IMG/VR virus record: IMGVR_UViG_3300027976_000125
Span: 1 to 31,912 of that record
Direction: 5' to 3' (one strand)
DNA: 31,912 nucleotides
From: a virus
Shown here: positions 10,968 to 13,524 of the stretch, piece by piece
How positions within the stretch are numbered: position 1 is the stretch's first letter
Layout of the letters: each line of letters starts with the position of its first letter
The notes under the pieces: generated by a model
Database searches by the model: none
Told to the model about the DNA's origin: nothing
What the model saw: only the letters and a program-made list of their open reading frames with translations
Program-made: the position numbers and the translations under genes

Positions 10968-11834
10968 ATGGTTCCACAGCAGACTAATAGTCAAAACCCA
11001 TTAATGAATCTTATGAGACAACCTAAGATTTACATTCGCTTACCTAGCGGAGGACAATATTGGGATGCCGGATCTATTGATGTTTCTGAAAATGGAGAGT
11101 TTCCTGTATTTTCAATGACTGCGCAAGACGAACTTGCACTGAAAATTCCAGATGCATTAATGAATGGACAGGCAGTTGTGGATGTTATTCAGCACTGTAT
11201 GCCTAATATTAAAAATGCATGGGCATGTCCTAACTTGGATTTAGATGTTATCTTAATTGCTATTCGTATTGCTACATATGGCGAAAAGATGAATGTACCG
11301 TTAGTGATTAAAGAGTTTGAAGCAGATTATTCTTTAGATTTACGAGTGTTATTAGATCAATTAAATGCTCAAATTACTTGGGATCCCGTTGTGCCTATCA
11401 ATGATGATCTTACACTTTATGTAAAGCCTATTAACTATCGTGTAATGAGTGCTAGTGCTGTACAGACTTTTGAAACACAGAAATTAATTCAACTTGCTGC
11501 TGACGATAGTATTCCTGATGATCAAAAGTTAGAAACATTTAAAAACAGTTTTGCTAAATTAAATCAATTGACTGTGGGAATTATCAATAATTCTGTTTAC
11601 CAAGTAGATTCTGCTGCCGGCCAAGTTACTAATCAACAACACATTCAAGAGTTTATGAACAATGTTGACAAGGCTACCTTCAGTAAAGTAAAAGACCATA
11701 TTGATGCCTTGAGAGAAATCAACACTATTAAACCATTGACTATACCTGTTAACGATGAAATTCGAGCACAAGGTGTTGACACAGACACTATTGAATATCC
11801 AATCAGTTTCGATCCTTCAAATTTTTTCGAATAA
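10968..11834 (+). CDS. 26: gp26 baseplate/tail assembly protein, 0-frame product (288 aa)
   Basis: A member of the T4 gp26 'base plate protein' family. Characteristic stretches are QPKIYIRLPSGGQYW (about 18-32), FSMTAQDELALKIPDALMNGQAVVDVIQHCMPNIKNAW (about 48-85) and DLDVILIAIRIATYGEKM (about 90-107). In T4, gp26 is needed for hub assembly and lies just before gene 51. The gene has an exact late promoter (TATAAATA) and a GGAGA Shine-Dalgarno 8 bases from ATG. The last codons, TCA AAT TTT TTC GAA TAA, contain slippery heptamers followed by a strong stem-loop. A part of the ribosomes should therefore shift to -1 and make a product of about 363 aa that adds the downstream frame. It is divergent from the tape-measure gene. 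Confidence 0.88.
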   Translation: MVPQQTNSQNPLMNLMRQPKIYIRLPSGGQYWDAGSIDVSENGEFPVFSMTAQDELALKIPDALMNGQAVVDVIQHCMPNIKNAWACPNLDLDVILIAIRIATYGEKMNVPLVIKEFEADYSLDLRVLLDQLNAQITWDPVVPINDDLTLYVKPINYRVMSASAVQTFETQKLIQLAADDSIPDDQKLETFKNSFAKLNQLTVGIINNSVYQVDSAAGQVTNQQHIQEFMNNVDKATFSKVKDHIDALREINTIKPLTIPVNDEIRAQGVDTDTIEYPISFDPSNFFE

Positions 11835-11905
11835 GGCTTTTGTCTCTCAGTTTGGAAGAGATTGACGAACTGAGTAGGAAAATGGAAAAAGAGACAAAAG
11901 CCTTA
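11819..11905 (+). promoter_or_regulatory. Programmed -1 ribosomal frameshift signal at the end of gp26
   Basis: Two overlapping slippery heptamers in the gp26 frame, A-AAT-TTT (11819-11825) and T-TTT-TTC (11822-11828), both fit X-XXY-YYZ. Three bases later a perfect 15-bp stem begins: TAAGGCTTTTGTCTC (11832-11846) pairs with GAGACAAAAGCCTTA (11891-11905). Inside it a second perfect stem TCAGTT/AACTGA (11847-11852 with 11868-11873) stacks directly. After a -1 shift the reading frame runs CGA ATA AGG CTT TTG with no stop, straight into the 72-codon ORF. The spacer of 3 bases is shorter than the usual 5-9, but a few base pairs can fray. The mechanism is inferred; the sequence elements are seen directly. 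Confidence 0.88.
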
Positions 11906-12058
11906 AAAGACAATCTATTCAGGCTTTGTTGGTATATGAGGGGCGGTATGACTATATCCGAAGCATACAATCTAGCACCTGATGATTTAGAAGTCCTTAA
12001 CATCATCATTAAGGACAATATGGAAACTACTAAGAAAAGCGGATTGCCGTTCTTTTAA
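11840..12058 (+). CDS. C-terminal frameshift extension of gp26 (gp51/gp28-like position, 72 aa)
   Basis: The reading frame is open from 11828 in the -1 frame of gp26. As a free-standing gene it would have only a TTG start, buried in a stable stem and without a Shine-Dalgarno, so expression as a gp26 fusion is more likely. The N-terminal half is charged and helical (LEEIDELSRKMEKETKAL). The C-terminal half (RLCWYMRGGMTISEAYNLAP...KKSGLPFF) has the pattern of the downstream piece of tail-assembly chaperones and resembles small ORFs following gp26 in marine T4-like phages. T4 has gene 51 (hub assembly catalyst) at this place, but with 249 aa. Its stop codon shares TTAA with the stop of the convergent minus-strand gene. 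Confidence 0.8.
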   Translation: MSLSLEEIDELSRKMEKETKALKDNLFRLCWYMRGGMTISEAYNLAPDDLEVLNIIIKDNMETTKKSGLPFF

Positions 12059-12570
12059 ACTGCTTTGCCGCCACGCACTACTTTAGGCTTTGCTGCCGGC
12101 GTTCCGGGAGGAGCCATTTTACTAACAGTCTTCTTAACTGGTGCTGCTTGATTTGTAATACCTAAGTCTTGTGCAAGGATAGCAAGAATTCTTTGCTTGC
12201 TTTTTTTATCTAATTTGGCAACTAAATCTTTTGTTTGTCTATAATTTGAAACTGCTGCAAGTTGTTGTGTAGATTGTCCCATTGCTGGGTTAACTTTATT
12301 TGTTGCAGTAGTTGGGTTACCTGCTACTGCTGATTTGCCTGCATTATAACCCTGCTTTGCTGCCTTGCCCATACCAGCAATACCACCTGCTACTGCGCCA
12401 GCACCTTTGGCAACACCGCCTACTACTCCAGGAACACCCATTGCAGCACCTTTGGCTACCTGACCTATGCCTTTGGCAACTCCTTTGATACCTGCTTTAG
12501 CAGCATCCCATCCAGGACCTTCATTTAATTCTCGAATAGCAGATTCGGATAATATTTGATCTATACGCAT
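12055..12570 (-). CDS. Glycine/alanine-rich protein with GxxxG-like region (171 aa), unknown
   Basis: The chosen start is the ATG at 12570 (MRIDQILSESAIRELNEGPGW), because AAGGA lies 10 bases upstream of it; a longer reading from 12597 (MFAIKETNI...) would put that site inside the gene. Residues about 20-85 are a Gly/Ala/Val/Lys stretch with repeated GVAKG, GAAMG and GGVAKGAG units, a glycine-zipper-like pattern able to pack helices or enter membranes. The C-terminal part has a helical segment (KLDKKSKQRILAILAQDLG) and a Pro/Lys-rich basic end. It has a good late promoter (12601-12608), so it is a late, perhaps virion, protein; an ejected or membrane-interacting protein is possible. No family is recognised with confidence. 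It is convergent with the gp26 extension. Confidence 0.72.
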   Translation of the reverse strand: MRIDQILSESAIRELNEGPGWDAAKAGIKGVAKGIGQVAKGAAMGVPGVVGGVAKGAGAVAGGIAGMGKAAKQGYNAGKSAVAGNPTTATNKVNPAMGQSTQQLAAVSNYRQTKDLVAKLDKKSKQRILAILAQDLGITNQAAPVKKTVSKMAPPGTPAAKPKVVRGGKAV

Positions 12571-12600
12571 GATGTTTGTTTCCTTAATAGCGAACATGAT

Positions 12601-13095: not shown

Positions 13096-13524
13096 TTAAA
13101 TTTTAGATTTTATGTGAGAGCCATGGACACGGACTTGTATATGTCCGTTATAGTATTCGTCGGATTCTAATACTTTGCGCTCGAATTGTTCTCGAGCCTC
13201 AATGTAAGATGTTTCTGATTTTGATTTACAGTAATAGAGGATTTCTCTAGTGAATTTATCTGTGCCTAATGCTACAACGTCTGTTGTTAGATTAGGACTC
13301 GAGCCATAATATGTTTGCCAGTCTGATTCAATTTTGCCTCGAATCTTTTTTTTCTTCTTTGTGCCGTTCTTTAACTTTACAGTCTTGTAGGTCGTTTTAC
13401 TAAATTTTGCTAATTTCTTACCAATATACTTACGCCCGGTAATTGTGTTAGAGATAAGATATACAAATCCAACACAATCTTCGGGCAATTCATTAATTAT
13501 ACTGCCTTGATAAGTCCAAGTCAA
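13096..13524 (-). CDS. GIY-YIG-like nuclease-domain protein (142 aa)
   Basis: The N-terminal part carries GFVYLISNTITGRKYIGKK (about residues 18-36), the two-part signature of GIY-YIG nucleases with YLI in place of GIY and KYIG for YIG. The usual later elements follow: ESDWQTYYGSS (about 66-76) and a conserved Glu-containing helix (TSYIEAREQFERKVLE, about 105-120). A basic Lys-rich loop (about 47-62) may contact DNA. Small proteins like this are common in T4-like phages as free-standing homing endonucleases or domesticated nucleases. The start is TTG, directly after the TAA of the preceding gene and in the same frame, with AAGG 11 bases upstream. It borders the structured non-coding region. 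Whether it is an active homing enzyme cannot be told. Confidence 0.8.
   Translation of the reverse strand: MTWTYQGSIINELPEDCVGFVYLISNTITGRKYIGKKLAKFSKTTYKTVKLKNGTKKKKKIRGKIESDWQTYYGSSPNLTTDVVALGTDKFTREILYYCKSKSETSYIEAREQFERKVLESDEYYNGHIQVRVHGSHIKSKI

Follow-up and report, generated by a model that had tools for sequence, protein, structure and literature searches.

The gp26 gene of this virus is very probably joined to the next ORF by a -1 programmed frameshift, and the predicted product would be the long form of a G/GT-type tail assembly chaperone. We analyzed a window of 31,912 nt, the 31.9-kb virus record IMGVR_UViG_3300027976_000125, together with homologous loci from other phages, and the features of the locus are listed in Table 1. 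A first-pass annotation made from the sequence had proposed both the -1 frameshift and the likeness to the G/GT pair, and the comparative evidence given below strongly supports this reading, with TTTTTTC as the probable slip site.

Table 1. Features of the gp26 locus, in window coordinates.
Feature	Position	Strand	Remarks
Divergent neighbor, probable tape-measure protein, 716 aa	8741..10891	-	Homologous position only
gp26 homologue, short form (TAC-N), 288 aa	10968..11834	+	Includes stop codon TAA; PF12322, phrog_150
Overlapping heptamer A-AAT-TTT	11819..11825	+	Present here, unconserved, probably incidental
Slippery heptamer T-TTT-TTC, in phase	11822..11828	+	Conserved in 79/79, 15/16 and 55/55 junctions
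-1 frame extension (TAC-C), 76 aa + stop	11828..12058	+	Homologous -1 ORF in 113/115 loci; conserved motif
Stem, 5' arm	11832..11847	+	15 bp as first noted, 16 bp in total; conserved core from 11835
Stem, 3' arm	11890..11905	+	Covariation at alignment columns 21-74, 22-73, 23-72 (34 relatives)
Nested 6-bp stem	11847..11852 with 11868..11873	+	Present here, not in consensus fold

The ORF starting at 10968 matched PF12322, the T4 gp26 family (E 6.3e-08; 33 bits against a curated cut-off of 24.5), as well as the baseplate hub family phrog_150 (E 1.6e-10), and PF12322 was also matched by 47 of 48 aligned relatives. The genes around it were T4-like, i.e. major head protein, protease, portal, gp46, gp47, late sigma factor and baseplate proteins. 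At the position equivalent to that of the divergent neighbor, a RaK2 protein is annotated as similar to tail tape measure protein and a SNUABM_47 protein as a putative tape measure protein, and by annotation and position the gp26 gene probably adjoins a tape-measure gene, divergently. With this probable neighbor, the gene is best read as encoding a G/GT-type tail assembly chaperone, and homology and context give good support to the putative chaperone role. On the other side of gp26, a convergent ORF of 180 aa (12055-12597, minus strand) overlapped the end of the extension with its own end by 4 nt and gave a weak phrog_9577 match, and an ORF of 142 aa with a TTG start (13096-13524, minus strand) matched phrog_447 and homing endonuclease families.

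The last codons of gp26 read TCA AAT TTT TTC GAA TAA, with the TAA at 11832-11834. Two overlapping slippery heptamers had been reported here in the gp26 frame, and both were present in the 0 frame, but A-AAT-TTT was not kept by relatives, in which its AAT was replaced by ACT, AGT, GTT, GCT or GAT; being unconserved, it was ruled out as the slip site. TTTTTTC on its own was frequent (6 per strand within the window), and it is meaningful through its phase and conservation, not through mere presence. In two scans, viral contigs yielded 115 loci that carry gp26. When the gp26 ends of relatives were aligned, a check that the first-pass annotation had proposed for a conserved heptamer and a covarying stem, TTTTTTC was conserved: it was observed in phase at 79 of 79 distinct junctions of related environmental phages (window counted), among which gp26 identity dropped as low as 26%, in 15 of 16 records of jumbo-phage isolates, and at all 55 cyanophage-type junctions. 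The base directly after it was nearly always G. Phenylalanine elsewhere in these genes was encoded by TTT 553 times and by TTC, the minority codon, 190 times, as counted in a set that took only junctions with the heptamer; this set was used for codon usage and not for the conservation counts, which come from unselected sets. The invariant TTT-TTC was therefore selected as nucleotides and does not reflect codon bias.

Rhizobium phage IC12 kept the arrangement of gp26 and -1 ORF with the slip site. Of the jumbo phages, only Xanthomonas phage XacN1 (L127:2280-2522) had a different slip site, TTTTTTT, with a perfect 11-bp stem (CCATCAAGTCC/GGACTTGATGG) six nt downstream of it. Pseudomonas phage Cygsa01 (L147:1572-2482) had gp26 and gp51-like ORFs in -1 relation with a TAATG start-stop overlap; no XXXYYYZ heptamer was found at its junction (C ATT TTC ACC TAA TG), and possibly frameshifting was lost there in favor of coupling.

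The -1 frame was open from 11822 through the stop at 12056-12058. The sizes of about 288 and 363 aa in the first-pass annotation were correct as arithmetic (288 aa for the short form, 287 + 76 = 363 aa for the fused form, with the extension joined at gp26 residue 287) for two forms that are predicted from the reading frames. We observed a homologue of the extension immediately 3' of gp26 in 113 of the 115 loci, in the -1 frame every time, with a conserved motif (CWYMRGG...ETTKKSGLPFF). Its initial residues, FFRxRLL, were also conserved and begin ahead of any start, and in the jumbo phages the homologous -1 peptide begins at the slip (FFR in most). The -1 frame usually opened no more than 9 nt upstream of the heptamer. 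A PHROGs search with the extension gave no family common to its members, and an assignment as phage integrase was rejected (E 0.012, below the cut-off).

A reading to be weighed against frameshifting leaves gp26 unshifted and takes the downstream ORF for a small protein of its own, which would start at TTG 11840 or close by through reinitiation or coupling. Starts in the -1 frame of the window were this TTG, which lies 5 nt past the gp26 stop with TAAGG just ahead of it, and then only later ones, e.g. ATG 11882. About half of the relatives, window included, had a TTG shortly past the gp26 stop, the cyanophage downstream ORF had a conserved ATG at +5, and 121Q had the start-stop arrangement TAATG. 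Separate initiation would account for the TTG, for the retained cyanophage ATG, for the overlap in Cygsa01 where the heptamer is missing, and for the separate genes called by annotators in 121Q, Phosso, CBB and others. However, the start was unconserved: 29 of 74 non-redundant junctions had no ATG, GTG or TTG within 45 nt after the heptamer start (55 of 74 with TTG ignored), and PA5oct had no start for the -1 ORF at all. The downstream ORF of the window had been described as a 72-codon ORF that lacks an ATG and a ribosome site; its homologues often have no start near their conserved N-terminus. A separate protein also fits poorly with the conserved FFRxRLL ahead of any start and with T4 gp51, which is a single continuous fusion, and it leaves the invariance of TTTTTTC at synonymous sites unexplained; we consider it improbable. 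In the cyanophages and 121Q, separate initiation may add to the proposed frameshifting. Cyanophage-type loci (L150-L229) had both the ATG at +5 and TTTTTTC, so gp51 could be both fused and free.

The sequence TAAGGCTTTTGTCTC (11832-11846) was the exact reverse complement of GAGACAAAAGCCTTA (11891-11905). The perfect 15-bp stem that had been noted as starting 3 nt past the heptamer was thus exact, and we found one extra base pair, so that the pairing reaches 16 bp (11832-11847 with 11890-11905). This was the sole perfect inverted repeat of at least 15 bp within 100 nt in the 31.9-kb window, with an expectation of 0.04 such repeats per first-order Markov sequence. The part kept in relatives (GGC, from 11835) begins 6 nt past the heptamer. 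The nested stem (TCAGTT paired with AACTGA), also part of the first-pass annotation, was real in the window but missing from the consensus fold, and was ruled out as a conserved element.

Covariation of the stem was present among 34 relatives, in which 39 cells of the helix had changed on both sides compared with 15.9 expected; none of 500 shuffles reached 39, and slid controls gave 15 at most. These 34 sequences were picked for pairing at this place, and the selection inflates the paired percentage; the compensatory pattern was judged against the shuffles. RNAalifold recovered the same helix core. Over 74 sequences, the fold z after the heptamer had a median of -2.8 relative to synonymous-codon shuffles of the -1 frame, with no significant stem in this test for Munch, SNUABM_47, L109, L092 and others. 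In some other lineages the 5' arm paired with different partners, located nearer or farther away. A downstream stimulatory structure is helpful, not universal, for G/GT-type frameshifts.

The shift could also be attributed to RNA polymerase, slipping on the T run, and not to the ribosome, as the run of six T (seven in XacN1) might suggest. Six bases are short for RNA polymerase slippage, however, the C after the run was nearly invariant with the phase fixed, and a covarying stem at 6-nt spacing fits a ribosome, which together leave polymerase slippage highly unlikely. Hardly credible at all is a reading in which heptamer and stem play no part in decoding and simply follow from conservation of the protein (FF, RLL...ETKAL): conserved residues are indeed encoded there by FF, R and portions of both arms, but synonymous-codon shuffles of the same proteins gave no such stems in most sequences, the compensatory changes exceeded the shuffles, and TTC, the minority phenylalanine codon, was invariant here.

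The structure of the short form was confidently predicted, with a pLDDT of 87.9, and the extension was predicted as helices with a pLDDT of 89.5. In Foldseek searches the short form matched viral models of T4-like baseplate hub assembly proteins, no significant match was obtained for the extension among the viral models, and the search against the PDB gave no match with E <=0.001. Sequence searches of the PDB with either profile gave no credible match. The HK97 chaperone (2ob9_A) aligned to residues 6-104 of the short-form model with a Z of 5.7 and an rmsd of 4.6 over 86 aligned residues, a result within noise. In phage CBB, the gp26 homologue CBB_250 was missing from the 55 virion proteins, and its neighbor CBB_251 was observed with 29 peptides. 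The absence of CBB_250 from the virion table fits a chaperone that leaves, but GenBank gives it the label 'structural protein', the CBB authors note undetected proteins, and the non-detection is weak.

The first-pass annotation had related the locus to T4 genes 26 and 51, which was right, and the relation proved more exact than proposed. T4 gp26 and gp51 both match PF12322 and are paralogues, and gp51 has approximately 48 residues beyond its PF12322 domain match. Profile comparisons spanned the junction, with E values of 1.6e-18 for T4-like gp51 against the cyanophage-type fusion, 7.5e-15 for the window-type against the cyanophage-type fusion, and 1e-4 for the window-type fusion against gp51 directly; therefore the counterpart of gp26 is the short product, and that of gp51 is the entire fusion. 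The genes are separate in T4, as had been stated, but 51 is not downstream of 26: gene 25 follows 26, and 51 is divergent from it. No slip site was found at the end of gene 26 in T4 and Aeromonas phage 31. The chaperones of T4-like phages thus share the family (PF12322/phrog_150) with those of the window, and T4 gp51 aligns with the whole fusion, but T4 has one gene for the short form and another for the fused form, without a slip site, whereas here one gene apparently gives both. In T4, two genes encode what these phages apparently obtain by frameshifting.

The cyanophage gp26/gp51 genes resemble the window in their TTTTTTC-G junction and -1 frame (55 of 55) and in their homologous fusion. 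They differ in having the ATG at +5 and a shorter, more gp51-like extension, and they are annotated as two genes, with gp51 as 'baseplate hub assembly catalyst'. We lean slightly towards a history in which the -1 frameshift at T-TTT-TTC is ancestral in T4-like phages for both chaperone forms and was retained by jumbo phages, by cyanophages and by uncultured relatives. The T4 lineage would then have swapped it for short and fused genes, and stimulatory stems at fixed spacing would have arisen with different partners in each lineage.

We infer the occurrence of frameshifting, its efficiency and the chaperone role. Most ribosomes would halt at the TAA and release the short chaperone (gp26, TAC-N) of 288 aa, and a minority, aided by the stem with its conserved core 6 nt downstream, would slip back one base on T-TTT-TTC and make the 363-aa form (TAC-NC) with its helical C-terminal extension. 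If the products act as in lambda, the short form would coat the tape-measure protein in many copies, and the recruitment of tail-tube subunits would fall to a few copies of the long form. Compared with the G/GT frameshift of phage lambda (Levin 1993; Xu 2004, 2013; reviewed in PMC5009743), the slip site here is TTTTTTC with a long covarying stem downstream, and the probable tape-measure gene is divergent, not downstream.

T4 has long stood as the exception to the G/GT frameshift in long-tailed phages, and the 2016 review (PMC5009743) describes G-T frameshifting as widely conserved except in T4. According to the passages of PMC10885494 and PMC12846349 that cite it, the chaperones of T4-like phages were identified by Vladimirov, Gautam and Davidson (2022), and in some of these phages a short gene occurs together with a fused one. 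PMC12846349 also attributes to Vladimirov et al. 2022 the poly-T slip signals that occur within the TAC-N genes of T4-like phages; given this attribution, the first-pass annotation was probably mistaken in its guess that gp26 frameshifting had no published description. The chaperone frameshift of Vandenendeviridae and Andersonviridae (PMC12846349) is alike in its conserved -1 open extension and in a poly-T signal where the short gene ends, and unlike in that signal being GTTTTT, here TTTTTTC. The CBB, phAPEC6 and Atu_ph07 papers make no mention of a frameshift. A frameshifted chaperone is thus not new in kind, and the comparative evidence for this one is unusually strong.

The probable frameshift is missing from the annotation of these phages and of many giant phages. 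In jumbo-phage records (L118, L124, L125, L126, L119, L131 and similar) the extension is entered as a hypothetical protein of its own, whose internal-ATG start cuts off its conserved N-terminus, and in RaK2, PA5oct and PAC2 it is unannotated. Our analysis corrects the annotation of the jumbo-phage records examined, which split both ORFs or miss the extension, and the combination of an invariant TTTTTTC and an open -1 frame provides a simple marker for further cases. With both arrangements in one homologous family, the swap of programmed frameshifting for two genes can be studied directly.
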